Virus record (IMG/VR): IMGVR_UViG_3300021197_001511
Span: 1-42,794 of that record
DNA from: a virus
Length of the DNA stretch: 42,794 bases
Reading direction: 5' to 3' (one strand)
In this document: piece after piece, positions 1-19,300 of the stretch
Layout of the letters: each line of letters starts with the position of its first letter
Position numbering within the stretch: the first letter of the stretch is position 1
Notes under the pieces: model-generated
Seen by the model: the letters and a program-made list of their open reading frames with translations, nothing else
What the model was told of the DNA's origin: nothing
Databases searched by the model: none
Made by a program: the position numbers and the translations under genes

Positions 1-730
1 TTTTGCGTCCTGTAACGCCAGCGTCACCATCAGGACCACCAATGACAAAATTGCCAGTTGGATTAAGATGGAATATAGTCTTGTCATCTATTAAATCTCC
101 TAGTACTTCTTCGCATGCTGATCTTGTGGCCATACGTGCAGGTTCATAAAAGCTCTCATCTTTGTGTTGTTGACTTACCACAACTTGATCAATACGTTTT
201 ACCTTGCCGCCGTCATACTCCACACTAACTTGACTCTTAGCATCAGGACCAAGATATTTGTATCCATCTACACGTTTTTCTTTTATATTTTTTAATATCT
301 CATGTGAATAGTAAATTGGAGCGGGCAGATACGCATCATTGTCATTACATGCGTAACCAAACATAATACCTTGATCACCTGCACCAAAATCATCTGTGCC
401 CAGTGCAATGTCGGCACTTTGTGAGTGCAATTGATTGTTGATTGTTTTGTTATCAACTGTCAGTTTATCCCAGTGAAAGCCTTCTTGCTCGTAGCCAATC
501 TCTTTGACTTTATCTCTTATAATTTGTTCAACTTGTTCATCAGTTATATTAAAGTTTTTCACTTCGCCTGCTAGTACAACGTAGTTTGTTGTTACCATTG
601 TTTCAACTGCTACTCTGGTTGATTCGTCACCGGCTTTAAGTCCAGCATCAACTAAAGCATCTGAAATTTGGTCTGCTATTTTGTCAGGATGGCCTTCGCT
701 CACTGACTCTGATGTAAAAATATAACTCAT
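1..730 (-). CDS. metK: S-adenosylmethionine synthetase (partial, 3' end outside window)
   Basis: This is the N-terminal 243 residues of a methionine adenosyltransferase, which makes SAM from ATP and methionine in the cytoplasm. Visible family motifs are FTSESVSEGHPDKIADQ near the start (the ATP-binding His and Asp lie in EGHPDK), GAGDQGIMFGYA near residue 120, and GGPDGDAGVTGRK at the window edge. MetK is normally about 385-400 aa, so roughly the last 140 residues lie to the left of the window. The ATG at 728-730 gives the canonical MetK N-terminus. A GAGGGA sequence lies rather far upstream, so the ribosome site is weak. It is the last visible gene of a long minus-strand operon rich in radical SAM enzymes, which suggests that it feeds them SAM. 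The family call is secure; the role in the operon is inferred. Confidence 0.96.
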   Translation of the reverse strand, partial: MSYIFTSESVSEGHPDKIADQISDALVDAGLKAGDESTRVAVETMVTTNYVVLAGEVKNFNITDEQVEQIIRDKVKEIGYEQEGFHWDKLTVDNKTINNQLHSQSADIALGTDDFGAGDQGIMFGYACNDNDAYLPAPIYYSHEILKNIKEKRVDGYKYLGPDAKSQVSVEYDGGKVKRIDQVVVSQQHKDESFYEPARMATRSACEEVLGDLIDDKTIFHLNPTGNFVIGGPDGDAGVTGRK

Positions 731-814
731 TTGTATATAAAAGGATCCCTCTTCCGTAGTTCTTTAAGTTTCTTACGATATCTAATTTCTAGTTTTATCT
801 TATTAAAAAGATTC

Positions 815-1501
815 TTAATCCATGTTATCATTATACACGCCTTTTGTTTGTTTGTCAAGTAGTTCTGGATCAAATAACGGAACTGCACAAAAAGTTAAAG
901 TACCTTTGTTTATCTTTGATACCGAACGCTTATAAGCAATTACAGTTTCTAAGTTATAGTAATTATACTCAGGATCAATGGGGGTTGTCCATTTTAAACT
1001 GCTTCCAATCTGTGTTCCGTGTTGAACATCATAGTTTGGTTCAACAGTACCTGCAAATTCATTGAAGTCAGTGTTCCAGTCTAGTAGATACGGAAGTATA
1101 AGCAGTCGCCAGCCTTTTGCCATTTTAGCACGCCAAGGATAGTTAAGAATTTTAAATCTATATTCATATAAACTGTAATCATCATCTGCCCAAGGTTTAT
1201 CTCCTTTGTTACCAAATAGTGTACCGTCAACCATTGGTGCTGATACTCTGCCTCTTGCAAAATATGTGTCGTATCCATCTAAGTCTTCTGGTAATGGAAT
1301 AGTATAACCAATACTTGCAAGTCCTCTAAAACCTAAACAATTTCTTATTGTTTGTTGTTCAGCAAATGTAACTTCATCTCTTTTTCCTTTAAGTTTCTTA
1401 AACCATTCAGGCATGTGGTTACGCATAGGTGTAGGTGCTGGACATTCAAGGTACTGTATTTCTGGATCATCACAGTATTCCCACTCAAGAAAATTATTCA
1501 T
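815..1501 (-). CDS. Uncharacterised phage protein, 228 aa
   Basis: I do not recognise a function. The protein is soluble, rich in aromatic residues, and has no signal peptide or membrane segment. The N-terminal third has MPEWFKKLKG, then TIRNCLGF and GYTIPLPEDL. From memory, this pattern recalls an uncharacterised family in T4-like marine phages, but I could not check that. Two cysteines lie in the first 20 residues (YCDD and ECPAP), with further ones in RNCLGF and FCAVP. The ATG at 1501 overlaps the stop of the upstream 350-aa gene by 4 bases, so the two are probably translationally coupled. It lies directly before metK and after the radical SAM genes, so it may be a partner or substrate of those enzymes; that is speculation. 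Confidence 0.7.
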   Translation of the reverse strand: MNNFLEWEYCDDPEIQYLECPAPTPMRNHMPEWFKKLKGKRDEVTFAEQQTIRNCLGFRGLASIGYTIPLPEDLDGYDTYFARGRVSAPMVDGTLFGNKGDKPWADDDYSLYEYRFKILNYPWRAKMAKGWRLLILPYLLDWNTDFNEFAGTVEPNYDVQHGTQIGSSLKWTTPIDPEYNYYNLETVIAYKRSVSKINKGTLTFCAVPLFDPELLDKQTKGVYNDNMD

Positions 1502-2550
1502 ATCAAAGGTACCTGTAGTTGTTTACTATCTGCCCAAGTGTATTCATATTCAGCATATGAATCACTGGTTTTAATACTATATACATCAAGATGTTTAGTT
1601 AATATACTTAAAACTCCTTGAAAATCTTTACAAGCAAAACTTTTCTCTAGATCAACCTGTCCAATTTTTGGGTGTCCTATTGTTAAACTTGGATCTTCAG
1701 GATCAAAATTGTTAGCAACTAGCCATTTCCTAAACTGGTTTAGTTTAGTTTGCATAAAAGGCCTGTCACGTGTTGCTTGTCCCCATTCTATATCAAAGTC
1801 ACCAGCAGCCTCTGTTTGTGGCTTAAGTGTTGTGGTTGTAAGTTCATCAAGGCGACTGTCTGCACCTTCATCCTGAAATACTTCATAATGATGCTTTCCA
1901 ACTGCTTTGTTTACACCTACATACACACCTCCGTGATCACGTGCTATAGAATCAATTCCAAACAAGTTATAGTCTTCATCATCTAATATGAATCTTGGTG
2001 CATGTAACCAACACATTACATTGCTAGGACGCACCCATTCTGGAGCACTGGTTACTTTACCTAAGCTCATAATTAAACATTCTGCCTCATGACATAGTAA
2101 ATTCAGTTGTCTTATGTGCCACCGTGTTTCTGCATCTGCATTTGTGTAATGTTTGCTCATTGCACCACTTACTCCTTGTGTTTCTTCGAAGTATAAATGC
2201 AACTGGTTAAGTTTGTCATGATTGAGGCCAATAATTTCGCAATTTCCTAATTTGCTCCAACGCTTAGTTGTCATGTTTGCAACAGTGAAATGGTCTTTAA
2301 TAAAATAGTCTATGCTACTACCGTTTATAGCCGCAATGGTTTGATTTATTTGCGTTACAATCACATCAAGATCACGTTCACAATTTGGAAAGCCCATAAA
2401 ACAGTAATTTTTTTCTAGATGTAGTTTATTATCTAAAACATCATTGAATGCATTTAACCATTTTTTACTTAGACTGTTATCATAAACATCAAAATATATG
2501 TGTAATAAACCATCGTTTCCACGCAGTTTCATTTCTATTCTATCCAGCAT
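1498..2550 (-). CDS. Uncharacterised phage protein, 350 aa
   Basis: No family is recognised. It is a soluble, mixed alpha/beta-looking protein with no signal peptide or membrane segment. It contains scattered cysteines and histidines, for example NYCFMGFPNCERD near residue 48 and a His/Cys pair in LLCHEAECLIM near residue 150, but no clear catalytic signature. The frame extends to a TTG at 2553. The ATG at 2550 was chosen, and it overlaps the end of radical SAM gene E by 11 bases. A second ATG at 2532 (MKLRGNDG) is also possible. The 3' end overlaps the following 228-aa gene by 4 bases. Its position between a radical SAM enzyme and metK suggests a role in the same pathway, as partner, scaffold or substrate. 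Confidence 0.68.
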   Translation of the reverse strand: MLDRIEMKLRGNDGLLHIYFDVYDNSLSKKWLNAFNDVLDNKLHLEKNYCFMGFPNCERDLDVIVTQINQTIAAINGSSIDYFIKDHFTVANMTTKRWSKLGNCEIIGLNHDKLNQLHLYFEETQGVSGAMSKHYTNADAETRWHIRQLNLLCHEAECLIMSLGKVTSAPEWVRPSNVMCWLHAPRFILDDEDYNLFGIDSIARDHGGVYVGVNKAVGKHHYEVFQDEGADSRLDELTTTTLKPQTEAAGDFDIEWGQATRDRPFMQTKLNQFRKWLVANNFDPEDPSLTIGHPKIGQVDLEKSFACKDFQGVLSILTKHLDVYSIKTSDSYAEYEYTWADSKQLQVPLI

Positions 2551-3868
2551 CAATTCTATCCCACCATTCTAATGTTTCTTCACATCCTTGCGGACCAGCA
2601 AATATATCTCTCATGCATAGTGCATTAGGACGTATATTTTCTAATGTAAGTATTCTGCGTTTACCTTTACGCATACCTCTCTGGTATTCTTCTTCGCTAT
2701 ACTGCTCTTGTAAGGTAGGTCGATTTTTAAGTTGTAGTAGTACATCACGCAGTGCGTTTCCAAGTATGAATTTATTTAATATGCTATCAATCTTGCGGTC
2801 AAGTAAATCACGTGGCAGTGCAAGTGGCGACATTATAACATCAGGCGTAAAAGTGAATATTACTTTTGCTAATATATCAACATTCAAATCATCAGCTAGT
2901 GCCTGCATATTACTTACGTCTTGCATACCTGGCAGTGTAAGAGTGTAGTCTAAACGCATCATACGTCTATTATGAGCTAATGGTAAAAGCACTTTAAAAT
3001 TATCAACAAATTCTTTATACTTCAATCCTGTACGTATGTATTCGCCGATTGCACCTGTACCATCTAAACTAGCACATATTTGCCAGTCACGTATATTTTT
3101 TAGTATATCATGGCCTAAGTGTATACCTTTGTATTTTATTCTACTCAAGTTTGTATTATACCTTGCATACAACTTTGGACCATCACCAAGTTCCACTATA
3201 CGTTTCATATACCGCCAATGTTGTTCGTACATGAGAGGCTCGCCACCTACCCAATAGATTTCTTCAATTCTATGTTCTTCAACTGCATCTGAAAACTCTT
3301 TTTCAATTTGTGTATCTTGAAATTTGCTTATTTCTTTACGAACCTCTGGACGCATCCAGTTATTTTTTGGGTTGTCTAAATTAACCATGTTGTGTTTACG
3401 TTGTTCTGTTTCCCACGAACTGCTCAGCATATCCCCACAGGTTCTACACTTAAAGTTGCATAAGTTTGAAAATCTGTAATCCCAGCTGATTGGCTTCATG
3501 CTGGTCCAGCCAGTATCATCTGTCGAGGTCCACAGTTCATCATAACGGTGTTGAAACAAGTGCCAAAAGTAAGTTCTATATACATCAGTGTTTAACAGTT
3601 TGTCTGTACAAACTTCGCACTCGCTAAGTGTCTCACCAGCCATCATTCTACGTCTAACACTACGCATGTGATCACTGTTCCAATGTTCTTCTAATGTATT
3701 TGGGTTGTACTTTCCTGTTCCTGATGCAGTATCAATGTACTGTTCAAAACTCTGTGCTGGTTCACGTGATGCACAACACATACGACGTTCTGTTTGTGGA
3801 CTAAGGTATGTGTGCGTCCAAGGAGCCATACATAAGGTTTCTGGCTTGTTGTCAGGTTTGTTTACCAT
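2540..3868 (-). CDS. Radical SAM enzyme E, N-terminal twitch/SPASM-like type
   Basis: 442 aa. The radical SAM CxxxCxxC motif is C137-C141-C144 (CNFKCRTC), preceded by RFSNL, and the SAM-binding GGEP is at 208-211. Upstream of the core, the first 90 residues carry CMAPW (C13), CC at 31-32, and a CxxC at 84-87. Their spacing resembles the auxiliary Fe-S region of SPASM/twitch domains, here placed before the core. This matches the N-terminal-twitch radical SAM family known from marine phages, whose function is not known. Such enzymes cleave SAM to a 5'-deoxyadenosyl radical, which then modifies a substrate, often a peptide. The gene starts within the end of the nucleosidase gene (7-base overlap), so coupling with MTAN is likely. 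It is the last of five paralogues here. Confidence 0.93.
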   Translation of the reverse strand: MVNKPDNKPETLCMAPWTHTYLSPQTERRMCCASREPAQSFEQYIDTASGTGKYNPNTLEEHWNSDHMRSVRRRMMAGETLSECEVCTDKLLNTDVYRTYFWHLFQHRYDELWTSTDDTGWTSMKPISWDYRFSNLCNFKCRTCGDMLSSSWETEQRKHNMVNLDNPKNNWMRPEVRKEISKFQDTQIEKEFSDAVEEHRIEEIYWVGGEPLMYEQHWRYMKRIVELGDGPKLYARYNTNLSRIKYKGIHLGHDILKNIRDWQICASLDGTGAIGEYIRTGLKYKEFVDNFKVLLPLAHNRRMMRLDYTLTLPGMQDVSNMQALADDLNVDILAKVIFTFTPDVIMSPLALPRDLLDRKIDSILNKFILGNALRDVLLQLKNRPTLQEQYSEEEYQRGMRKGKRRILTLENIRPNALCMRDIFAGPQGCEETLEWWDRIDAG

Positions 3869-4428
3869 ACAAATGAAAACTGTTCTTGTTCAGTAAGTAT
3901 TGTTTTTCTAAACAGTTCAGCACCCTTATGAACATTCTCACGCCATTGGTCTCCTTGATCTTCACCGTCTGCATCACTATCTGAAATATACTTGTAACAG
4001 TCAAAAGGAATACCAAACTTGGTTGCAACTTTTGCAAGTGCATATGCTTCCATTTCACAAATCTGATAGTTAATATGTGGTACACTAAAACTATCACCTG
4101 TGCCACAAACAAATAAACTGTCGTGCTTTGTTTGGCAAACAATCATCTGTTCTTCGTCTCCTGGTGAAACATACAGTGGCAAGCCAAGTGGAGTACAATC
4201 CATATCACGTTCAATAACTGCACTTACGCCTACCAGTTCGCCTTTAATTTCTTTACTACCGCCTGCTGAACCATAATTTATTATCTTGCTATATCTATCA
4301 TTATAACACAATTCTGCAGTAAGAGCAACACTAGCGTTTACTTTTCCTACACCTGTGACTAGTTTTTTATAACCAGCGGGTAATGATCCAGGTAATTCTT
4401 CTTCTAATGCTATAACAACTAATATCAT
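3862..4428 (-). CDS. mtnN: MTA/SAH/5'-deoxyadenosine nucleosidase (MTAN/Pfs family), short form
   Basis: 188 aa against about 230 for bacterial MTAN. Family hallmarks are ALEEEL at 7-12 (acid matching E. coli Glu12), GVGKVNAS at 26-33, NYGSAGG at 51-57, CEMEA at 124-128 (E125 and E127 matching the ribose-binding and catalytic acids), and ISDSD at 148-152 (D150 matching Asp197). The arginine before ISD in E. coli (Arg193) appears as Lys146. MTAN cleaves adenine from SAH, MTA and 5'-deoxyadenosine. The last is the by-product of radical SAM enzymes and inhibits several of them. The gene is embedded between radical SAM genes D and E, with ATGA-type overlaps on both sides, which supports that role. 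The shortened region between residues 80 and 112 makes activity likely but unproven. Confidence 0.85.
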   Translation of the reverse strand: MILVVIALEEELPGSLPAGYKKLVTGVGKVNASVALTAELCYNDRYSKIINYGSAGGSKEIKGELVGVSAVIERDMDCTPLGLPLYVSPGDEEQMIVCQTKHDSLFVCGTGDSFSVPHINYQICEMEAYALAKVATKFGIPFDCYKYISDSDADGEDQGDQWRENVHKGAELFRKTILTEQEQFSFVW

Positions 4429-5630
4429 GTGTTTGGTCCTTTGTATTCTATAGCTTCTGCTAATTCAGCATGATGTGTACATAAATCTTGTTTCCTACGC
4501 CAATCTACATCAGCAACTTTCATGCGTAAGATGTTTCCATCTAAACTTGCACCACCATTTATAAAGTCAATTATGTTGTTGAATTCTTTTCTGTGATATT
4601 CTGTTACTTTTGCATTTTTTAATTTTCCTATTGCAACTTTTTTTGCACGGTCTGGAAGTGTGCCCACACTATGATAGTATGCCTCATGCAACATGTTCCA
4701 GTATACAAAATCAAAATTGCGTTTATCAATCCAGTTTGCAAGTCCTTCTAAATACATTACATTAAAAACGTTTACTGTGGAGCAAACCTGTAACTGTATG
4801 TTTGTATTACGATCACGCATCGCCTCAAACCGATCCATGTTAGTGTTCACTTCGTTCCATACTGCGTTAGCACGTTGGTATTCAAAACGTTCACCAACAT
4901 CATCAATTGAAAATGCTATTTCAATTAATTTAAAGTGTTTCCATATCTCTTCAGCGTGTACTGGAAAATGTGTTCCATTAGTATTATAGTGTATTTCTAC
5001 ATTATGTGCAATACCTTTGTCAACCATTCTTTGTAACAGTTGAAAGTGTTCTTGTATCATAAACGGTTCACCACCAGTAAACTCTAAGTACCGGACTTGC
5101 TCCATCAGTTTATCGATCTCCGTCCAAAACTTTTGATTGCGTCTTGGCCATGCTCCATCTTTAAGCATCTGGTAATGAAAGCTGTCTTTGCCCTCAAACT
5201 TAACTTCTTCGGCTGCAAACGTACTTGAACTCCAACTACCGCATATACGGCATTTTAGGTTACAAATATTGCCCAGTTTGAAATCTATAAACACCAATGG
5301 TTTTGCATCAGCAGTCCATTCAGTGTCTGTAACAATATGTTCTAATCTATTTAAAGTGTGCATACGTTTTGATGTTCGTCCTGAACGTTCTTCATTCCAG
5401 CACTTACGACAAGTTTGTGGCTTCTTGCCATCTAAAAATTCTTGACGTAGTTTTTGCATGTATTCGCTAGTATGAACTTCGTTGAGATCTGTTGTTAATA
5501 GACTATATTTGTTTCCATCTGTATCTGTAATCTCATCCTCTGCTAAACAACAAGGCCTAGTAGTGCCAATAGGTGACGTTTCTAAACTTACCCAAGGCAA
5601 GACACAAAATGTTTTGTGTGGCAATTTCAC
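4425..5630 (-). CDS. Radical SAM enzyme D, N-terminal twitch/SPASM-like type
   Basis: 401 aa, the shortest of the five paralogues. The core cluster motif is C123-C127-C130 (CNLKCRIC) and GGEP is at 186-189. The N-terminal auxiliary region has FCVLPW (C9), CC at 27-28 and CRKC at 74-77. The start is GTG at 5628-5630, with an AGGAG ribosome site 7 bases upstream. This GTG overlaps the TGA stop of the preceding gene (GTGA), so the two are coupled. Its 3' end overlaps the nucleosidase gene by 4 bases (ATGA). No C-terminal SPASM cysteine cluster follows the core. Radical SAM chemistry is secure; the substrate is unknown. Confidence 0.93.
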   Translation of the reverse strand: MKLPHKTFCVLPWVSLETSPIGTTRPCCLAEDEITDTDGNKYSLLTTDLNEVHTSEYMQKLRQEFLDGKKPQTCRKCWNEERSGRTSKRMHTLNRLEHIVTDTEWTADAKPLVFIDFKLGNICNLKCRICGSWSSSTFAAEEVKFEGKDSFHYQMLKDGAWPRRNQKFWTEIDKLMEQVRYLEFTGGEPFMIQEHFQLLQRMVDKGIAHNVEIHYNTNGTHFPVHAEEIWKHFKLIEIAFSIDDVGERFEYQRANAVWNEVNTNMDRFEAMRDRNTNIQLQVCSTVNVFNVMYLEGLANWIDKRNFDFVYWNMLHEAYYHSVGTLPDRAKKVAIGKLKNAKVTEYHRKEFNNIIDFINGGASLDGNILRMKVADVDWRRKQDLCTHHAELAEAIEYKGPNT

Positions 5631-6910
5631 TTTAATGCTCCTAGTTCAGGTATTATATCTAGTACGTTTTCATTGCGTATACCGTCAAGTTGATTGGTCT
5701 TTTGCCAAAACTTTTCTAGCAAGTGTGTGTTGTCAGTTTTAAGATACTGTAATGCACTTTCAAAACCAACAGTTGCTCTATTCAAATGATCCAATGGACG
5801 TAACCATTCAAGATGTTTCTCATACACATCAACAATTTGATCTTTGTATGCTTGTGGTGCTATGTCAATTCTATAGTAGTCAGGATCTTGTAGTATGTTA
5901 ACATTCAAATCTTGTGCCTTTATAAGTCCTTTTTCTACCCAGTCTCTGTGAAACCCAGGTATGTGTAGTGCATTCATTATGCTAAGTGTAGGGCTAATGT
6001 AAAAGTCAACTCGTGGACATATCTCCATCATCTGTCGTCTGTTCTCTTCAACCACACTCCACTTTGTACCTTTACGTATGTATTCAGCACGTGGACCCAT
6101 TGCATCTAAACTAGCACCGACTGCAACACTTTCAAACTTTTTCCAGTAGTCAAACACTAATCTGTTTTTCAGTTTCACATGTGTAAAGTTTGTATTGTAA
6201 ATTAAACGCACATCAAATCTGCCTCTACGTTCTAGTTCTTCTAGTATAACATAGTGTTCATCCATCATGCAAGGTTCGCCGCCGGCAAAGTATATCTGCT
6301 CAACATGATCTAAATGTTCCATTAGTTGGTCCATCATGTCAGTTTCAAAACGTCCTGCATAGTTTAAAACACTGTTGTTCTTTGCCCATTCTGGACCTGC
6401 TAGTGCAGTTTGATCTTTGTACCAACTACTGGAAAATATATGTCCACAACTTCTGCAACTAAGATTACACAAGTTTGAGAAACGTATGTCCCAATAGGTC
6501 ATCGCAAAGTCTTTGTATTCGCCATCCTCTGCGGTGTCTTGTGTTCTATGTATATGGTGTCCATGATGCTTGTTTGCACTTTGTCTTCCTGAGAAGAATC
6601 CTGACTTCTCCTGTTCATAACAACGTCCACATGCTGAATTTTCTGTTTCAGTTAGCATGTCTTTACGCAGTTGCTTTTGTTCTGCACTATTCCATATTTC
6701 AGACATGGTATTTGTTTTACAGTTGCCTACCTGTCCTACGCCCATTTCAGCATGGCAACATGGATATGCTTCGCCTGTTGGATATGCGTGTAGATGTATC
6801 CATGGATACATACAAAATGTTTTGCTTTCGCTTAACAGGTTACGCTCTCGTTCTTCTAAGTCACTGAGTTTTATTTTTATTGGATCGCTACTGTTATAGT
6901 TGTAACTCAT
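5627..6910 (-). CDS. Radical SAM enzyme C, N-terminal twitch/SPASM-like type
   Basis: 427 aa. This member shows the permuted architecture most clearly. A SPASM-like stretch at residues 31-100 reads CMYPW (C33), PTGEAYPCC (C51, C52), SEIWNS, and CGRC at 94-97. The radical SAM core follows, with RFSNLCNLSCRSC (C148, C152, C155) and GGEP at 210-213. In classical SPASM enzymes the PW...CC...IW...CxxC block comes after the core. About 30 residues precede the block, more than in D and E. The ATG at 6910 overlaps the upstream radical SAM gene by 17 bases. There is no strong ribosome site, so coupling is likely. With D and E it forms one subgroup (CC pair and RFSNLCN). Confidence 0.93.
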   Translation of the reverse strand: MSYNYNSSDPIKIKLSDLEERERNLLSESKTFCMYPWIHLHAYPTGEAYPCCHAEMGVGQVGNCKTNTMSEIWNSAEQKQLRKDMLTETENSACGRCYEQEKSGFFSGRQSANKHHGHHIHRTQDTAEDGEYKDFAMTYWDIRFSNLCNLSCRSCGHIFSSSWYKDQTALAGPEWAKNNSVLNYAGRFETDMMDQLMEHLDHVEQIYFAGGEPCMMDEHYVILEELERRGRFDVRLIYNTNFTHVKLKNRLVFDYWKKFESVAVGASLDAMGPRAEYIRKGTKWSVVEENRRQMMEICPRVDFYISPTLSIMNALHIPGFHRDWVEKGLIKAQDLNVNILQDPDYYRIDIAPQAYKDQIVDVYEKHLEWLRPLDHLNRATVGFESALQYLKTDNTHLLEKFWQKTNQLDGIRNENVLDIIPELGALK

Positions 6911-8252
6911 TGAACCATTCTTTCATGCTTGGAAATGCTTTATTAAAATTTTTATTACGTCTAATATCATACTGTGTGTAAAATTTTACAAAGTCGTTGT
7001 GTAGTTTTGGTGTTTCAAATGCTTCACTGTGTGGCGTTTTAACAACATCTAAGTAATCTAACAAACGTTGTGTTTGATTAAGTTCATGTTCATGTAAAAA
7101 TTCATTGTCTACATTTTTATCAAACCATTTTTGCAATCTGTCTTTATGTGCAGAACGGATCTTATCAGGCAATGCCAATGCACTTTGAAAACTTGGAAAA
7201 CGCAAAATATTAAGTGTAAAACTAGGGTAATCTCTGCCATACATTTGTTTAAAGTGTAGTAGATATGTTAGGAACTCTGGTAGTGTTTCCAAACATAATG
7301 CATTTATGGTACACATATTATGCAAACCACGTAACTTTCCACTAGCGGCTAGCAGGTGCATATTTCGTGACCATGTAGGCCAATCCAATCCATCGCGTAT
7401 ATATTCAGATTGATGAACTAGACTTTCGTTTGATGTGTATATATCCAACGGAGCACTGTCAGCTCTGTCGAGTAGTTTTGTTATATCCTCAATACTGCAT
7501 TGTAGATTACTGTTAATAGCAATACGTGTTTTACTAGCACCTTTGTTCGCTTTGAACCAATCTAACAGTTTCCACAAGTGACCACTCATCATTGGTTCAC
7601 CGCCAGTAATGCGTAATTCGTCAAGTGTGTGGTGCAAGTCTGATTCCCACCATTTAAAAAATGCTTCGATATAAGGGTTTGTTTCGTTGAATCTATACAG
7701 TTGCGAGCTGTCATGTGGATGTGTAAAATGATTTCTTCCATCGCTGATCAAACCTTCATATGCACCATTTTTCTTAATGTCTTTTACCCATGTGGTTGAG
7801 AAAGCAGGATTGCAATAACTACATGCTAGTTGACAAGTTCTATCAAAAGCAATTTCGAGTGTCTTTAAGTTAACATCCGTTTGCCAATCTCTTTCATGTG
7901 CAACATGCAGGTCTTTGTCTTTGTAAATTACACTTTTATATACTCTGTCGCTGATGTTGTCTCGGCCTATGTCTTCAACTTTCCAACAGTATTCACAACC
8001 TTCTGGACGCTCGCCGCATTGCATTTGTCGTCGTTCTTCTTTTTTCTGTGGTGTATTGTGCAGTGCTTTTGGATTGGCAATCACATCTTCCACACTTACT
8101 TTATGAGGTAGAGGATGATGGCAACTGGTGGTCATGCCACTGCCTAACCATATAGTAGCATTGTACCATTTGGCTCCACACATACTTGAACTAAGTGGAT
8201 CAAGCACTCGTTGTTTATAATTTAGGTCAGTTTCATTTGGTTGTTTGGGCAT
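6894..8252 (-). CDS. Radical SAM enzyme B, divergent N-terminal-cysteine type
   Basis: 452 aa. The radical SAM motif is C140-C144-C147 (CQLACSYC) and ITGGEP ends at 220. The N-terminal auxiliary cysteines are C25 (MCGAKW), C44 (SCHHP) and CEYC at 86-89, followed by KVEDIG and SDR. It lacks the CC pair of enzymes C-E and shares PxALHNT, the HP after the second cysteine, and CxYCWxxED with enzyme A, so A and B form a second subgroup. An 18-base gap separates it from gene A. No Shine-Dalgarno sequence is seen there, only the palindrome GTATAATTATAC directly before the ATG, which is unusual in an operon where most genes overlap. The substrate is unknown. Confidence 0.92.
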   Translation of the reverse strand: MPKQPNETDLNYKQRVLDPLSSSMCGAKWYNATIWLGSGMTTSCHHPLPHKVSVEDVIANPKALHNTPQKKEERRQMQCGERPEGCEYCWKVEDIGRDNISDRVYKSVIYKDKDLHVAHERDWQTDVNLKTLEIAFDRTCQLACSYCNPAFSTTWVKDIKKNGAYEGLISDGRNHFTHPHDSSQLYRFNETNPYIEAFFKWWESDLHHTLDELRITGGEPMMSGHLWKLLDWFKANKGASKTRIAINSNLQCSIEDITKLLDRADSAPLDIYTSNESLVHQSEYIRDGLDWPTWSRNMHLLAASGKLRGLHNMCTINALCLETLPEFLTYLLHFKQMYGRDYPSFTLNILRFPSFQSALALPDKIRSAHKDRLQKWFDKNVDNEFLHEHELNQTQRLLDYLDVVKTPHSEAFETPKLHNDFVKFYTQYDIRRNKNFNKAFPSMKEWFNELQL

Positions 8253-8254
8253 AT

Positions 8255-8266
8255 GTATAATTATAC
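8255..8266. other. 12-bp perfect palindrome GTATAATTATAC before radical SAM gene B
   Basis: It fills most of the 18-base gap between radical SAM genes A and B and ends two bases before the ATG of B. It contains TATAAT on either strand, but no -35 match is seen 17 bases upstream on the minus strand. It could be an operator, an internal promoter giving a nearly leaderless transcript, or chance in AT-rich DNA. Confidence 0.3.
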
Positions 8267-8270
8267 AGAT

Positions 8271-9701
8271 CTAAATACTAGCACGATATTTGCACTCTTC
8301 CCACCATGTGCTCATTTTAGGAAATGTTTTTAAGAAGTCTGTGCCTCTACGTCTATCATGTTCGTTAAAGAACCTGTAGAAGTCTGCTTTGTTTTTATTG
8401 ATATATTCAGGATCTAGTTTTTGTCCATCACGCATCCATGCAATGTCTCTGTCTAGTCTTGCTACTTCATAATCTTTAAATCCTTTAAAACGTGTTTGTT
8501 CAGATTCTAAATTTTCTTGCATCCAGTCTTTTATCACTTCAAGTTCATGTACATAACTTTCTGGTAACAGTTGTAGACTCTGCCAAGTAGGTGTACGCAG
8601 TACAGGAGTATCAAACCAAACTCTTTGATAGGTGTTACTGTATATTTGTCTTAGTCCAAGGATAGCCACAAATAACTGTTGCAAACTGGTAATGCTTAGG
8701 TTATTCATTGTTATAATAAAAGTTATACTATTACGTTCCGGTATGTCGTTTAGAAACTGATTTACTCTGTCCCATAATAGGTTGAAGTTCAATCCGTGTC
8801 GCATGTATTCTGCTGGTTCAAACATACCGTCCAGGCTTACATACTGCATAAAGTGTTCAACACGATCAGGAACTTCACATAGCATAGTAACATAACCTTT
8901 GTAGCGTTGCCATAGTTTTTCTTCAACACTGAAGTTTGAAGTTGTGCTTAGGTGTAGTTTTGAACTTGGATTCATTAATACATAATCAAATACACGGTAT
9001 GTATTCTTATCCATCATTGGTTCACCACCAGTCATTCTAAAATGCTCAAGCTCAGGATACAGTGTAGGCCACCATTTCCAAAATGCTTCCACATAAGGAT
9101 TGTGTTCTCTTGCTGGTATAGGACGTCTTTTGCCTGTAAAGTGTGCTGGATCATTGTGCGGTGTTGACGTTGGCCATGCACCATGTTTTTCTGTTTCAGC
9201 CATCCACGTTGAACTATACTGCGGTGAACAGTAACTACAACTAAGGTTACATGCACTGTTGAAATCTACTTCAACATAACTAGGCGTAATATCTTGATCC
9301 CAAGGAGAATTTTTAATTGTTTCAAAGTCCTTAATTGCCCAAGGCTCGCCTGAACGAAAGTGTCTATCACTTAATTTGCCATTGTCTTCCATTGCCCAAC
9401 AATAACTACACTCAGGTGGTCGTGTGCCTTCTAACATCAATTTGCGTTGTTGCTTTTTGTGTTCTGTATTGTGTAATGCACTAGGATTGACTTTGATTAA
9501 TTCTGCATCTGCACTATGAAGTGGTGGATGATAACAACTGTTGTTCATACCAGTTGTCAAATGTAAACTAAGTTGCTTCCATTTAGCCAAACAGAAACTT
9601 GGGCTTACTGTGTCTAACTTCTGTTGGGCACGTTCTGCGTCAGATAAGAAGTCGCTTTTAAAGTTCTCATCAACGCCATCGCCTTTGTTTTGAGCTACCA
9701 A
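8271..9701 (-). CDS. Radical SAM enzyme A, divergent N-terminal-cysteine type
   Basis: 476 aa, the largest paralogue and the first of the five to be transcribed. The motif is C151-C155-C158 (CNLSCSYC) and MTGGEP ends at 228. Auxiliary N-terminal cysteines are C37 (FCLAKW), C56 (SCYHPP) and CSYC at 98-101, in a context nearly the same as in enzyme B, so the two are probably tandem duplicates. The only upstream start with a good ribosome site is TTG at 9699-9701, with AGGAG 9 bases before it. No ATG occurs before the first conserved cysteine. The start overlaps the end of the upstream glycosyltransferase-like gene by 7 bases. Function beyond radical SAM chemistry is unknown. Confidence 0.92.
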   Translation of the reverse strand: MVAQNKGDGVDENFKSDFLSDAERAQQKLDTVSPSFCLAKWKQLSLHLTTGMNNSCYHPPLHSADAELIKVNPSALHNTEHKKQQRKLMLEGTRPPECSYCWAMEDNGKLSDRHFRSGEPWAIKDFETIKNSPWDQDITPSYVEVDFNSACNLSCSYCSPQYSSTWMAETEKHGAWPTSTPHNDPAHFTGKRRPIPAREHNPYVEAFWKWWPTLYPELEHFRMTGGEPMMDKNTYRVFDYVLMNPSSKLHLSTTSNFSVEEKLWQRYKGYVTMLCEVPDRVEHFMQYVSLDGMFEPAEYMRHGLNFNLLWDRVNQFLNDIPERNSITFIITMNNLSITSLQQLFVAILGLRQIYSNTYQRVWFDTPVLRTPTWQSLQLLPESYVHELEVIKDWMQENLESEQTRFKGFKDYEVARLDRDIAWMRDGQKLDPEYINKNKADFYRFFNEHDRRRGTDFLKTFPKMSTWWEECKYRASI

Positions 9702-10618
9702 CCTTCTTGACTCCTAATCACATCAATTTCGCGAGTCATAATAGATTTATTGTGCCAGTTGCTACGATAATGATGTTTAAAAAATTTACTTTGTACAGGT
9801 GTAAGGATATTCATGGGTAAAGAAAGTTGTCTAGCAAGATCATCAGCTTTTATGCTTACTAATTCACCAGGTGCTAAGTGTTTTACATCTTCCCAGATAG
9901 CATCCAACTTTGCAAAGTCCTGTACGTCTTTATAGTTCCAATCCTTCTGCAACATTGTTTTATATGTTCCAAGTCTTGATCCTGCAATAGCCCATAGTCC
10001 GTGTTCTGTATCTGCACCTATATTGTGCCATATGGTTAAATGATCTAAGTTTCTATTATGTACACTTTCCTTAAACGCACTTGCACTGGGCTTGGTACCT
10101 TTATCAAGGCACATCTTTACGCCTTCTCTAAAGCCTGCACGGAAAGCATGTTTTGCACTTTCTCCAGGATAGGTAGTTGAATAGCAGTTGTACATTGGCC
10201 AGTATAGGTCATCAAAGCAAAACTCCACATCAGTTTCATCTGCACCTTCTGATGCTTCGTGTGTACGCATGTTTTGTACAAATGTTTTAGTCCATGAACT
10301 TATACCTCCGTTGCCATACATAAGTCCGTTTATATCGTTGCGGGCACGCCATCTGTACACTGCTTGTTCGTACTGATCTGTTTTGTATTCGATCGTTTCG
10401 TTGAAAAAACTTTCTTGTGGCAAGTTATCGCCATCAATTAGTATAAAACGTTCTGTATCGCTTGCGTCAGCAGCCGCTTTGTGTGCCGCATCTGATCCAT
10501 GTACTCCATCTACACGTTTAGCCCATGGCACCATGTTGCGTATCTTTACCCAGAATTCTTCTTTCTTGGGCTCGTCATAGCTCAAATATATGCAATCTAA
10601 ATCAGCAACATCAATCAT
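9695..10618 (-). CDS. Glycosyltransferase-like protein (GT-A fold), 307 aa
   Basis: The segment RFILIDGDNLP, with DGD at residues 62-64 after a hydrophobic strand, resembles the metal- and sugar-nucleotide-binding DxD of GT-A glycosyltransferases. YGNGGISSWTK near 101-111 resembles an acceptor-side loop seen in such enzymes. The frame opens at a TTG (10666), but the ATG at 10618 is preferred because it follows a GGAG and overlaps the stop of the secreted-protein gene by only 8 bases. The N-terminal strand is then short, so a longer form from the TTG cannot be excluded. No signal peptide is seen. It lies between the small secreted protein and the radical SAM genes. The donor and acceptor are unknown, and the fold call rests on motif reading only. 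Confidence 0.65.
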   Translation of the reverse strand: MIDVADLDCIYLSYDEPKKEEFWVKIRNMVPWAKRVDGVHGSDAAHKAAADASDTERFILIDGDNLPQESFFNETIEYKTDQYEQAVYRWRARNDINGLMYGNGGISSWTKTFVQNMRTHEASEGADETDVEFCFDDLYWPMYNCYSTTYPGESAKHAFRAGFREGVKMCLDKGTKPSASAFKESVHNRNLDHLTIWHNIGADTEHGLWAIAGSRLGTYKTMLQKDWNYKDVQDFAKLDAIWEDVKHLAPGELVSIKADDLARQLSLPMNILTPVQSKFFKHHYRSNWHNKSIMTREIDVIRSQEGW

Positions 10619-10991
10619 TCTTTCTATACTCTCCTGAGAATGGTGTAAAATCTGTACCACCAGCAATTACACATGCAACATTATATTCACCAACTTTTTG
10701 ATAACTGAAAATTGTAAATGTACTGGTTTTAGGATTCACATACATAAGCAAATCAACAGTGACCATATCTGGTTTCATCAATGGCTTGATTTTGAATACT
10801 CCACTTGCAAACTCTTGTTCGCCATGCTTGTTTACTATATCTGAAAGGTAGTCAATGCCTTGTTCACTGCATGGTACCTGCATGTTTAACAGTAGCTGTG
10901 TTCTGTCTGGCTTTGATTCTGGTTTTGGTATTTCTTGAGCGTGTGTGTTAAATGCGGTAAGCAGTAACACCAGTATAATTAGGTGTTTCAT
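10611..10991 (-). CDS. Small exported protein, 126 aa
   Basis: The N-terminus MKHLIILVLLLTAFNTHAQE is a textbook Sec signal peptide: a Lys, a hydrophobic run, then likely cleavage after THA at residue 18, so the mature part of about 108 aa should reach the periplasm. The mature region has two cysteines (VPCSEQ and VACVIAGG) that could form a disulfide. The frame can start at 11018, but the ATG at 10991 was chosen because it follows a GGAAA and gives an uninterrupted signal peptide. I recognise no domain. It is the only clearly exported product of the operon. It could act on the host envelope or be a substrate of the neighbouring enzymes; both are guesses. Confidence 0.78.
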   Translation of the reverse strand: MKHLIILVLLLTAFNTHAQEIPKPESKPDRTQLLLNMQVPCSEQGIDYLSDIVNKHGEQEFASGVFKIKPLMKPDMVTVDLLMYVNPKTSTFTIFSYQKVGEYNVACVIAGGTDFTPFSGEYRKND

Positions 10992-11007
10992 TGTTTTTCC
11001 AATCTGT

Positions 11008-11355
11008 TTAATCAGCATAATAGGTTTTAACTTTCCATTTTACTGAACTATTTGTATCGACAATCATGACATTGTCAACTGCACAAGCAACTCCTTCATT
11101 TCCAGGAACTAACTTTCGCCATCGAACTGCCTCTACAATGCTTGTTAACTTACCATTTAGTACAATACTATCGTAACGACTTTCAGCATACTGTTGTTTG
11201 GTAATCTCAATATAATCACCGTCTAGATCCTCAGTTGAATATTGTAAGGCCTTACCTGTTTGTTTATTATAGTATAATTTATATTTTTTGTCAACCTGTT
11301 TTACTGGTTTTACATGCTCTTCAAAGATTTTGAAAAAGTCTACTGTCTCAGTCAT
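11008..11355 (-). CDS. Uncharacterised phage protein, 115 aa
   Basis: A small soluble protein. The middle reads YKLYYNKQTGKAL, then DGDYIEITKQQYAES and a C-terminal half with RKLVPG and GVACAVDNVMIV. From memory this arrangement recurs in small conserved proteins of T4-like marine phages, but I cannot give a function. The ATG at 11355 overlaps the upstream glycosyltransferase stop by 8 bases. Its own stop lies inside the alternative start region of the secreted-protein gene. No signal peptide or membrane segment is visible. Confidence 0.68.
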   Translation of the reverse strand: MTETVDFFKIFEEHVKPVKQVDKKYKLYYNKQTGKALQYSTEDLDGDYIEITKQQYAESRYDSIVLNGKLTSIVEAVRWRKLVPGNEGVACAVDNVMIVDTNSSVKWKVKTYYAD

Positions 11356-12112
11356 AGCAATTCCCTAGTTCTGTTGCAAGATATTTTTGATGATAATGCA
11401 CAAACCCATATTGATTATGCCCATTTATACGTATCACACCATTGACAATTTCCCAGATCAGTTCCTTGTTCCAATCTTCTGCAGTAGTTCCAAGTATTGC
11501 TGATTTCATATGGACAATCTGTGGGCCATAACCAGGTGTACAATAATTATCTTCGCATAAAGCATAGATTAGATCAGTGTTAGCTGCCTCATCGTGTCCA
11601 CCTTGTATTGTATCTTTTGCACTGTCCCAGTTTTCAAACGTTTTTTGTACTTCAGTAAAAAACTGTTTTGCTTCAATACTCATACGCCAATACGTAATAG
11701 CATTATAAACATCTGTTAATTTATTTTTATCAAATATCTTTCTGTACTTTCTTACTTTGCTAGGAATATTATGAAAGTCTCTACAACCAGTCGAGATCCA
11801 AACTGGCTTTGTTCTATACAAGTTCCACCAATGATCCACCGGACCGCTTACAATCATATCTGCTTCTAACTTTACAGTTTCGTGAAACGGACTAGCATGA
11901 AAAACTTGCCAATCAGTTGTCCATCCACCTGTATTACCATAAGGAAACTGTTTGACATAATCAAATAATGGATTGTTGTATTCAACATCAGTGAGTAAAC
12001 ATATTTTTACATCTGGATGCCAATAACGCAGACTTTTTGCTAGTGTTTCAGCACATGCAATATAATCTTTACTACCAACTATTAAGTACCCTCTACCTGC
12101 TTCATACGGCAT
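11348..12112 (-). CDS. Glycosyltransferase, GT8-like, 254 aa
   Basis: The N-terminus GRGYLIVGSKDYIACAETLAKSL followed by DVKICLLTD matches the opening of GT8-type transferases (first strand, helix, then a donor-binding TD). KLEADMIVSG at 82-90 supplies an ExD version of the DxD metal motif, where Glu replaces the usual first Asp. The C-terminal IVHMKSAILG and the GHNQYGFVHYHQ stretch offer possible metal-binding histidines. The frame opens at 12163, but the ATG at 12112 is chosen because a GGAG lies 8 bases upstream. It overlaps the preceding glycosyltransferase gene by 11 bases. Two GT8-like genes in tandem suggest stepwise sugar addition. The acceptor is unknown. Confidence 0.72.
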   Translation of the reverse strand: MPYEAGRGYLIVGSKDYIACAETLAKSLRYWHPDVKICLLTDVEYNNPLFDYVKQFPYGNTGGWTTDWQVFHASPFHETVKLEADMIVSGPVDHWWNLYRTKPVWISTGCRDFHNIPSKVRKYRKIFDKNKLTDVYNAITYWRMSIEAKQFFTEVQKTFENWDSAKDTIQGGHDEAANTDLIYALCEDNYCTPGYGPQIVHMKSAILGTTAEDWNKELIWEIVNGVIRINGHNQYGFVHYHQKYLATELGNCYD

Positions 12113-12848
12113 AGAGCTTCTCCAGATATTCTTTGCCCATAATATGCAGGTCGTTGTGTTCAATACATAAACGTCTGGTAGTGTGTTCTAACCACCATTT
12201 TCCGTCATATGCAACTTTGATTTTTGGATCAACATTAAATAATGGCCAAGGTATATCACATTGTTCAGTGCCTGTACCATTGCATATGAGTAATGCAATA
12301 CTCAAAGCAAAATCGTTACGAAACTGTCTTACGTCAAATTCAAATATATTTGCATAATGGTAGTAATTTTGCTCAACCATTTTCCAACAGTCAAATACAT
12401 CATTGCTAAATGTACTTTTGTCAAAAACAACAACAGTAGCCCACCACATGTGAGTATTTTTCATACCAAATTTTTCAATATGTTTATTCTTAAACACAGG
12501 TTGAACAGTTTTATGTGCAAAAAAAGACTGGGTAGAGTTAATACAAGTTAATAAATTACTACTATTCAACATATAATCGGTATCTAGTATTATAGTTCTT
12601 TGATATGGTGTATAATCAAATGCATGACTACGTCTGCCATTATACCATATTCGTGATTGGTGACGATTTTTATTAGTTGGTTTCTCAACAATTACTTGTT
12701 GGTCGTATAAATCTGTGTCTAGTTTAATATCAGTTACAAGGCTAACTGGAATATTGAGATACCTTTTAATTCTTTTTGCACATTCATTTGCGAGTAATGT
12801 ATATTTTACTTCGCTATCAAATGCAAATAGTAAAGCACCAGTGGTCAT
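12102..12848 (-). CDS. Glycosyltransferase, GT8-like, 248 aa
   Basis: The GT-A features are LLFAFDSEVKYTLLANECAKRI at the N-terminus, PVSLVTD near residue 40, and RTIILDTDYML with DTD at 89-91, the expected DxD. Residues 110-150 (FFAHKTV through WWATVVVFDKS) fit the GT8 middle region. HNDLHIMG near the C-terminus matches the HxxG-type metal-binding end common in GT8. The gene starts with an ATG inside the stop of the 105-aa gene (ATGA) and overlaps the next glycosyltransferase by 11 bases. It shares an operon with the radical SAM genes. Whether it decorates the phage, the host envelope or a modified peptide cannot be told from sequence. Confidence 0.75.
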   Translation of the reverse strand: MTTGALLFAFDSEVKYTLLANECAKRIKRYLNIPVSLVTDIKLDTDLYDQQVIVEKPTNKNRHQSRIWYNGRRSHAFDYTPYQRTIILDTDYMLNSSNLLTCINSTQSFFAHKTVQPVFKNKHIEKFGMKNTHMWWATVVVFDKSTFSNDVFDCWKMVEQNYYHYANIFEFDVRQFRNDFALSIALLICNGTGTEQCDIPWPLFNVDPKIKVAYDGKWWLEHTTRRLCIEHNDLHIMGKEYLEKLYAV

Positions 12849-16376: not shown

Positions 16377-19300
16377 TTAACTCTTTAAGAATTTTACTGC
16401 CGGGGTAGTTTGGTCTTGTAATGCAATGCCGTTACTTGCAGTACCACTGCCTTGTGCATACATTACTTTAGCAGTTACTTGACTGAACCAAACTTCCACA
16501 TTTGCAAGTGGTGGTGTTGTAAGTGTTACTTCTGTAAACGCACTATCTGTTGCAGTGATTGTGTAATCTGTGTCTGGCACAAGCACTGTACCAGCAACTG
16601 TGACTGTGATTGATTCAGCAAGTTCTGTACTGTCTAAGCCAGTTGGTACTATTATACTTGTTGTAAATCTAGTAGTTGTACCATCACCAACATTTGTTTT
16701 ATCAGTTGTTGTTTTTTGCTGATATGTATTTGGCAACTGCTCGCCTGGACCAACGTCACTTGCCTGTGTAGAAATCACATGTGACATTGCACTTGTTCCA
16801 GCAACACCCCTACGTAATCCACTAATTGAATTACTACCGGTATCTCTTGTTCTATATGTAATTCTTTCTGCACCCACCATTACTTGGCCAAACAGGTTAG
16901 CAGATAGATTTGGTTCACTGAGCTTTGTTACATCTTTAAAGTAGATTGTATCTGCATCAGCAGTTATATCTTGTAATAATTCTGTTGTATTATTTGAATT
17001 CAGCCTTAGTAATTTTTGATTTCCTAACATGTCTTGAAATATTCGGAAGTTTAAACTATTAGGAACTATTGTGTTAGTAAACATTGTAACTGCTAAAACA
17101 TCAGACGCATTTATTGTATTTCTGTCTAAAGTTAATGTTGTAATGTTGTTTGTAGAAGTACTTAAATTATATTCTGTTTGTTGTATGTACACTCCGTTAA
17201 GTGTTACAATCAGTCTTTCTGGACTTGTTATAAGTCTACCGAGATTAAAGTCATTTGTATCAATAGTTGTTCCAATTGTTTTATCGAACTCCGCACTATC
17301 GTATGGTACCTCATCATATGCGTCTCCAGTTGTAACACCACTGGTTGTTGGACCAACAAATACTTTTGTTAATATATTCTGCTGAGCAGTATCGTTGTAG
17401 GTAAACACTCCAAAAACTGCATTGGCAACCGCACCAACACGAAGTTCAATTTGATCTCCCATAACAATATAATCTGCTTCAGTTGTTGTGAAAATCTTAA
17501 TATCGCTATTAGCAGGAGGCATACTACCTACAGTAAATTCAATGTATCTATCGCTTGATCCATCCCATGCACTTAGGTTATAATCAACTGCGAGGTTTTG
17601 TTTTACATTATCAACATATACTAGCATATCGTTATCAGATACAAGAGCCTGATTGCTTATGCCAGTTGTGCTTATATAATATGGCCCTGCACTCGATCCA
17701 TCACCTGTGTATTCAATACCTTCTGGCGGACGTAATCTTAGTCCTTCGCGATTAACAACCAGGTTAGCAATGTTTGTACCTTGCAAACTATTTGTCAGAG
17801 GATCGAGTAGACTCGATCCATCATATGTCATATATTGTACTAGAGGGGTACTCCAACTATACTGTGTTGGTGTTGTTGTTCCTAAAGCAACTATTGTTAT
17901 CCATGCAGTACTCGGAATTGTTGAACCAAATGTTACTTTAGTAAAAAAACTGCCGCTAGCCGCATAAGTGTAATCTGTTGTAACAACACCATTATTAAAA
18001 ATAACCATTTCATTGATTTCACTAAATGTAACAGGAATGGTTTGTGTGTTAGATGCAATTTCTGTACCAGCAAAACTTTCTTTATAAAGTTGCGAACCTC
18101 CACCTAATCCAAAAACCTTAACTCCAATTGTATTCCCAACTGCACTAGGCATTGTTGCTCCGAGAGTTACAATTTTGCTAACCCAATCAATTGTATACGC
18201 AGTGTTTACTATGGCTTGTCCTGTAGTAAAATCGACAATTTCAATACCAACTGGATGTAGTATTGTGTTTGTAAAATCTATTGTTGTGCCAGCACCAATG
18301 AACTCAATTGTTGTAGTAGCAATATCAAATCCGTGTCCGTCACTGCTCCAATCACTTCCAGGGCGTGTGTATACTTTTAGATCAAGTGTGTCAAATTCAC
18401 TGCCTGGAATTAATTCTTCAGGAGCATGCGAACTATATAGGTCTATAAATTCTCCGCCTTCAACGTTGATGTCTGTTGACCTTGTGCCTAAGTAGGTGTC
18501 GGAAAATGCACTTTCATATATTACATCTAATATTCCTGGATCATAAGTTGGCAATCCTTCTGGGCCAAAATCAATATTATCAAATGGATTGATATCAAAG
18601 TTGCCAACATCATATCCGGTATTTTGATTGAAATCTGGACCTTGTACTTGTACACCAGGATAGTCTATTCCGCTCATTACTTGAGCAAGTTCTCTTCCTG
18701 GCTCGTTTGGTTCAGGAGTGTATAGGCCAATTGTTCGGTCAGCACCATCAAGAGTACTTTGATTAACTTTTGTATAACCTTCAGGGTCAAATGTTGCACC
18801 ACTTGTTAAATTTGTGTCAGCACTGTATACTTCAGGTAGCGTTGCTGAAACCACACCAACAGTTGGAACCGGAAATCTAATTAATTGTCCTGCGGTATAA
18901 AACGTATCCGCAGTCCAATCCACTACCTTACTAGTATATGTAATTCTGTCGTATGCTATAGTTGTTGTAAAATCACGCACCTGTTGCGGTTCTAGAACAG
19001 CTATTGCAGTTGCTCCTGTACCATTGCCACCTGTAATACTGATTGTTGGAGTGGTCATATATCCACTTCCTTGTGTGATTAAGTTTACTCTTACTAGCAC
19101 ACCAGCAGTATTGACGGTTGCAGTCATTGTTGCTTGTGTTGTTGCATCGCCGGTGACAGTAACTTGCGGTGGCACTGTGTACCCTGAACCGCCATTGGTA
19201 ACTGTTACACTTTTAATTTGTAATTTATAATTGTTAAACCACTGACTCCAAGGAAACGTTTGCCACACAACACTTGTGCTTGGCAATGCACTTTGCGATT

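Follow-up and report, generated by a model that had tools for sequence, protein, structure and literature searches.

The window analysed here is a linear 42.8-kb record of a marine virus of bacteria from IMG/VR (IMGVR_UViG_3300021197_001511); L- and G-numbers denote related loci and records. One end of it carries, on the minus strand, metK, five radical S-adenosylmethionine (SAM) genes (RS1 to RS5) and a gene resembling 5'-methylthioadenosine/S-adenosylhomocysteine nucleosidase (MTAN). A preliminary description of the window had listed these genes, and all were recovered as open reading frames (ORFs) in their places, with the corresponding family matches. It had also placed the MTAN gene between two radical SAM genes with translational overlaps, and these measure 4 nt (with RS2) and 7 nt (with RS1). 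The features of the region are as follows.

2..730, minus strand: metK, methionine adenosyltransferase (PF00438, PF02772, TIGR01034), truncated at the window edge after 243 of its roughly 367 residues
815..1501, minus strand: ORF228 (phrog_7084), found only in some relatives
830..858, minus strand: sigma-70 type promoter upstream of metK, a perfect match to TTGACA-17-TATAAT
1498..2553, minus strand: ORF351, conserved array partner with matches at 59 viral loci; phage-only fold
2540..3868, minus strand: RS1, N-twitch radical SAM, orthologous group 1 (NF033640, 282.5 bits)
3862..4428, minus strand: MTAN-like nucleosidase, 188 aa (PF01048; PRK05634 below cut-off; E11, E127 and D150 conserved)
4425..5630, minus strand: RS2, N-twitch radical SAM, orthologous group 2 (NF033640, 338 bits)
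5627..6910, minus strand: RS3, N-twitch radical SAM, orthologous group 3 (NF033640, 401 bits)
6894..8252, minus strand: RS4, N-twitch radical SAM, orthologous group 4 (NF033640, 281 bits)
8271..9701, minus strand: RS5, N-twitch radical SAM, orthologous group 5 (NF033640, 300 bits)
9695..10666, minus strand: ORF323, first gene of the coupled block, strongly conserved (61-78% identity across array phages)
11266..11294, minus strand: sigma-70 type promoter upstream of the array, a perfect match to TTGACA-17-TATAAT

A conserved array of five radical SAM genes

All five radical SAM proteins exceed the curated cut-off (170 bits) of NF033640, a twitch-domain radical SAM family, with scores of 281-401 bits. 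Their membership of this family predicts that they cleave SAM and release 5'-deoxyadenosine. Invariant across RS1-5 (RS3 numbering) are C148, C152 and C155 of the CxxxCxxC motif and the N-terminal auxiliary-cluster cysteines C33, C52, C94 and C97; the motif itself is retained in 139/139 radical SAM sequences from the window and its relatives. RS3 is 20-28% identical to the other radical SAM proteins of the window. A tree of the 139 sequences (window plus 24 loci) resolves five orthologous groups that match position in the array, and RS1-RS5 are therefore not redundant copies. Prokaryotic viperin was considered as an identity and ruled out (best NF038283 score 38 bits, cut-off 180).

The genes occur in one order, RS5-RS4-RS3-RS2-RS1-ORF351-carbamoyltransferase, in about 40 aquatic phage contigs. 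Departures from a uniform 5-4-3-2-1 row are a few duplications, arrays truncated where the contig ends, and one fusion of RS3 with RS2. The fusion, a single 849-aa ORF in L151 (G034:C1:55538-57943), suggests that RS3 and RS2 may work together. The carbamoyltransferase is of the NodU/TobZ type by Pfam and lies past the window end, where it is seen in relatives. This array, with ORF351 and the carbamoyltransferase, is a more conserved unit than the gene set first described, and it could not be seen from the window because its end is cut off there. Commonly, ORF271, ORF115 and ORF323 precede the array, and an amidinotransferase and U0-type genes follow downstream; in the nearest relatives the amidinotransferase is located beyond the point where the window ends. 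Its matches include AGAT, SxtG and inosamine-phosphate amidinotransferase.

Other genes are inserted between array members, namely an epimerase, cytidylyltransferase-like, Asn-synthetase-like and SGNH-like genes, methyltransferases, extra radical SAM genes and, identified by sequence inspection, KdsA/KdsB-like genes. Given that the 5-4-3-2-1 order is fixed despite these insertions, the array is a stable unit within a plastic island. The nucleosidase, metK, RS1-5, ORF351 and ORF323 are all under strong purifying selection, with dN/dS (nonsynonymous to synonymous substitution rates) of 0.06-0.11.

For ORF351, an AlphaFold2 model (pLDDT 90) found no fold match and no solved relative in the PDB, and its matches in BFVD are unnamed phage proteins. 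In L140 (9959-11104), ORF351 follows a gene like QueD/6-pyruvoyl-tetrahydropterin synthase and no radical SAM genes are present; ORF351 is therefore not array-specific. ORF323 has a DGDN motif that is glycosyltransferase-like but unconfirmed as such; its AlphaFold2 model is weak and gave no fold match. Neither ORF351 nor ORF323 had a tblastn match among 50,697 GenBank phage records.

Relatives were also sought in genome contigs. A joint profile of all five radical SAM proteins is too divergent to serve for a scan of the collection. The first profile scan of genome contigs returned no relatives, and the second found bacterial RS3 relatives of 24-43% identity. Among the arrays on bacterial contigs, a carbamoyltransferase is present in L178 and L179 and an amidinotransferase in L188. 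L181, L183 and L184, titled as Rhodobacteraceae and Rickettsiales metagenome-assembled genomes (MAGs), hold the phage island ORF271-ORF323-radical SAM genes and are probably phage contigs binned with bacteria. One stretch of a Bacteriovoracaceae MAG (L177, 4040-16033) contains eight N-twitch radical SAM genes, and an Elusimicrobia MAG contig (L192) has a row of four large radical SAM ORFs (685-939 aa).

The MTAN-like nucleosidase

The nucleosidase passes the PF01048 (PNP_UDP_1) cut-off, scoring 47.8 bits against 25.1. In an alignment with solved MTANs, E11, E127 and D150 stay the same across 12 phage sequences, and we take these residues to be the catalytic Glu/Glu/Asp positions, as assigned in E. 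coli MTAN. Within the branch of arrays to which the window belongs, the gene always lies between RS2 and RS1, at 77-94% amino acid identity and dN/dS of about 0.1. Used as a query, it found 18 viral IMG/VR loci, all with the nucleosidase inside the same radical SAM array or island, and most of them also have metK where the contig extends far enough. That 18 array loci bear the nucleosidase indicates that the gene set is no accident of a single contig.

Radical SAM enzymes release 5'-deoxyadenosine, are inhibited by it and need its removal (PMC8102628). Position inside the coupled radical SAM block makes removal of 5'-deoxyadenosine the likeliest role of the nucleosidase, which may also serve S-adenosylhomocysteine (SAH) and 5'-methylthioadenosine (MTA).

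The L124 array, outside the window's branch, has a different nucleosidase (11250-11816, 36% identical), between ORF351 and the carbamoyltransferase. About ten other phage loci carry this L124-type nucleosidase and no radical SAM array. In L163, L165 and L167-L169 it stands directly before a carbamoyltransferase, between primase-like and helicase-like genes and with KdsA/KdsB-like genes, again with no radical SAM arrays.

metK, PF01883 and the distribution of the support genes

As the window stops within metK, its copy is partial and scores 242 bits on TIGR01034 (profile positions 1-242); the nearest relative has a complete metK of 431 bits, above the cut-off of 309.4. To describe the distribution of support genes, 41 array records were searched whole; some of these are near-duplicates and many are incomplete. 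The nucleosidase is present in 8/41. Nine of the 41 have metK, inside the array in six and elsewhere in three, and all array cases belong to one branch. PF01883, an iron-sulfur (Fe-S) assembly family, is also found in 8/41, comprising 7/7 records of the branch and 1/34 of the others. The sole case outside the branch (G024:C1:145064-145252, the L133 record) again lies among radical SAM genes and is apparently an independent recruitment.

On a tree of ORF351, arrays with both nucleosidase and metK form one clade that includes the window (SH-aLRT 99). L022, inside the branch, has no metK in its array or elsewhere in its 316-kb record. Entry into radical SAM arrays seems to have occurred at least twice for the nucleosidase, at least twice for PF01883 and once for metK. 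We retrieved 311 viral metK stretches; among the best 80, only the window's own branch adjoins a radical SAM array. As the metK-plus-nucleosidase arrays form one clade, simple co-occurrence counts were not used as proof.

These data bear on the earlier proposal that metK, the radical SAM genes and the MTAN gene make up a cassette for SAM supply, use and cleanup, an idea said to fail if the three gene types were rarely neighbours in related phages. By that criterion the proposal is supported in part, as the trio is rarely adjacent outside one clade. In the window's branch the trio stays together over large divergence, with PF01883 added; the arrangement is not general. Thus metK and the nucleosidase are branch-specific additions to the array, and for this branch a supply-and-cleanup function is plausible.

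Transcription and genomic setting

ORF323, RS5, RS4, RS3, RS2, the nucleosidase, RS1, ORF351 and ORF228 overlap or are separated by gaps of at most 18 nt. The description of the locus as one operon holds for this coupled block, from ORF323 to ORF228; metK lies 84 nt further downstream and has its own promoter (830-858). In L006, L012 and L013 the same promoter stands 100 bp ahead of metK; ORF228 is missing from two of these three, yet the position is kept, so the promoter travels with metK. Counterparts of the array promoter, with TTGACA or TTGACT, lie upstream of ORF135/ORF323 in L006, L009, L012, L013, L016 and L020. Perfect TTGACA-17-TATAAT sites number 4 in the window, compared to 0.17 expected under a first-order model; another is at 27579-27607 on the minus strand, inside a 4522-aa structural gene. 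The T4 late promoter TATAAATA does not occur within the window. The sigma-70 sites and the promoter layout suggest that a host-type RNA polymerase may transcribe the array, separately from the late genes. A terminator-like hairpin (13194-13167, minus strand) follows the tail-fibre-type genes, in a region where the number of hairpins is not above chance.

The window derives from a T4-like myovirus, as it encodes a late sigma factor, a baseplate hub/tail lysozyme and tail-fibre-type proteins. Further minus-strand genes lie beyond ORF323.

10611..12848, minus strand: ORF135, ORF115, ORF271 and ORF248, between the tail-fibre genes and the array; kept in many array phages, function unconfirmed

ORF135 (10611-11018, minus strand) has a signal-peptide-like start, as in a small exported protein, and sits between the tail-fibre genes and the array. 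One structural ORF of 4522 aa occupies 16377-29945 (minus strand) and is adjoined by an ORF of 1135 aa, unusually large for a tail region.

Relation to known phage systems

T4-like phages rich in radical SAM genes are already known, including Campylobacter phages CP220 and CPt10, a TARA phage and the pelagimyophages. CP220/CPt10 (PMC2853527) are themselves T4-like and have five radical SAM genes, a glycine amidinotransferase and genes with nucleoside diphosphate-sugar-transferase domains beside baseplate genes. The CP220 amidinotransferase is homologous to those of the array phages, and this type of gene content (five radical SAM genes and an amidinotransferase near baseplate/tail genes) is matched in the window's relatives. 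However, the CP220 radical SAM proteins are only distantly related to those of the array (best 1e-8 to the array profile, ≤26 bits), the CP220/CPt10 clusters of 10-12 genes are interchangeable, being swapped between phages, and no metK, nucleosidase or PF01883 is annotated in the CP220 cluster. Given these marginal profile matches, we regard the array as analogous to the CP220 module and not as a member of it.

Pelagimyophage radical SAM cassettes also lie in a tail-fibre/lipopolysaccharide (LPS) host-recognition island (PMC7029224), and the T4-like TARA phage combines 12 radical SAM genes with Fe-S assembly genes, an A-type carrier and paaD (PMC5332604). The available parts of these two accounts mention neither a fixed order of five enzymes nor metK nor a nucleosidase. 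Among isolates, Vibrio phages K566 and K567 have five N-twitch-like radical SAM genes among glycosyltransferase family 8 (GT8) and GT4-like genes, but these are about 25% identical, differ in order and strands, and are accompanied by no ORF351/ORF323 match. Bacterial Pfs/MTAN, studied with biotin synthase and other radical SAM enzymes (PMC8102628), supplies the biochemical logic for pairing the two activities; there, by contrast, it is a housekeeping gene with no radical SAM array as partner. In open-licence full-text literature we found no description of the invariant five-group order, of the partners ORF351 and ORF323, or of a branch-specific metK, nucleosidase and PF01883.

A possible pathway and its alternatives

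The explanation we favour, with a probability of roughly one half, is that the host-recognition (tail-fibre) island of a T4-like phage from aquatic habitats ends in this region, with a five-enzyme radical SAM array that makes a sugar or glycan product and a support kit specific to one branch. The five non-interchangeable enzymes (RS5-RS4-RS3-RS2-RS1) would each carry out one of a series of steps leading to a shared product. The likeliest product is a sugar or glycan, or else a surface or virion component bearing glycans, which would afterwards be carbamoylated and, in many phages, also amidinated. For the window's branch we propose that the array was fitted once with its support kit, in which MetK, made from its own promoter, would supply SAM; the nucleosidase, made within the coupled block, would remove 5'-deoxyadenosine (and SAH/MTA); and the PF01883 protein would help Fe-S cluster maturation. 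The sugar or surface assignment is our best guess from context and a candidate only. It draws on the neighbouring carbamoyltransferase, amidinotransferase and sugar-nucleotide genes, on the location of the array in the tail-fibre region, on Vibrio phage K566, which interleaves N-twitch radical SAM genes with two GT8 genes, and on the published view of this region as an LPS/host-recognition cluster with radical SAM cassettes (PMC7029224).

Several observations weigh against this explanation. ORF323 and ORF271 were not confirmed as glycosyltransferases, a reading we did not adopt, and Pfam annotation of the other neighbours of bacterial RS3 relatives gave no common theme or clear sugar context on those contigs. 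The nucleosidase is short (188 aa) and scores below all equivalog cut-offs for MTAN (the best being PRK05634 at 83.4 versus 129; TIGR01704, 30 versus 74), and we therefore name it MTAN-like. Most arrays have neither MTAN nor metK, so the array does not need either, and their joint presence in arrays goes back to essentially a single event. Viral metK is widespread outside radical SAM arrays, which argues against a tight link, and at other loci the L124-type nucleosidase adjoins the carbamoyltransferase with no such array.

In a rival account, metK and the nucleosidase are general housekeeping genes for SAM, SAH and MTA, or host-takeover genes, beside the radical SAM genes by chance. Most of the 80 viral metK stretches examined (of 311) lie outside radical SAM arrays, nucleosidases occur without arrays, some array inserts are methyltransferases (L009) and metK has its own promoter. 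Yet the MTAN gene stays inside the coupled block across 77-94% identity, the L124 array has a different nucleosidase, and PF01883 joins the same arrays; we consider this account somewhat unlikely. A peptide or protein substrate, for instance a tail fibre of the phage itself or a short peptide matured like a RiPP (ribosomally synthesized and post-translationally modified peptide), would suit the weak resemblance of N-twitch/SPASM radical SAM enzymes to peptide maturases and the adjoining tail-fibre and baseplate genes. RiPP-type maturation is disfavoured because the array, with genes that overlap or lie ≤84 nt apart, contains no precursor-like ORF; moreover, the maturase-model matches are weak and far under cut-offs, and the accessory genes are of sugar type. 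We judge a peptide or protein substrate unlikely.

Less probable again is modification of nucleotides or DNA, in which the carbamoyltransferase would act on 5-hydroxymethylcytosine, as in 5-carbamoyloxymethylcytosine phages, and the radical SAM enzymes would add further base decorations. The carbamoyltransferase has a match to phrog_1601 ('Nol-like'), and phage enzymes of this kind are able to carbamoylate 5-hydroxymethylcytosine (PMC8670742). The sigma-70 promoters suggest host-polymerase expression, and other phages have primase- and helicase-looking genes next to the L124-type nucleosidase and the carbamoyltransferase; both points are in keeping with such a role. However, DNA-acting carbamoyltransferases co-occur with PF00303 (thymidylate synthase/dCMP hydroxymethylase), and carbamoyltransferases outside modified contigs are reported to be flanked by glycosyltransferases (PMC8670742). 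PF00303 is absent from 14/17 array virus records, with the records of 316-343 kb among the 14, and this absence argues against DNA modification; the 3/17 with PF00303 include none from the window's branch, and contigs may be partial. A search made with no positive control gave no TET/JBP match, and the array is located in the tail-fibre region.

Returning to a sugar or glycan product, the stronger proposal is that this is a new phage pathway in which five successive radical steps lead to a new sugar or small molecule that is carbamoylated and, in many of the phages, guanidinylated as well, with one branch self-sufficient in SAM, Fe-S maturation and 5'-deoxyadenosine removal. We put it forward tentatively, as less likely than the explanation above. 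Environmental phage contigs carry the array repeatedly, yet the two marker genes tested, ORF351 and ORF323, are unmatched in GenBank phages, so that isolate-based work would miss it. Enzymes of the radical SAM class are costly, work slowly and are sensitive to oxygen, yet these phages retain five of them in an unvarying order, and one branch has added genes that would feed them and clear away their waste. If this reading is right, the window's branch offers a case in which to examine how radical chemistry is kept going in an infected cell, and the array would point to an undescribed five-step product.

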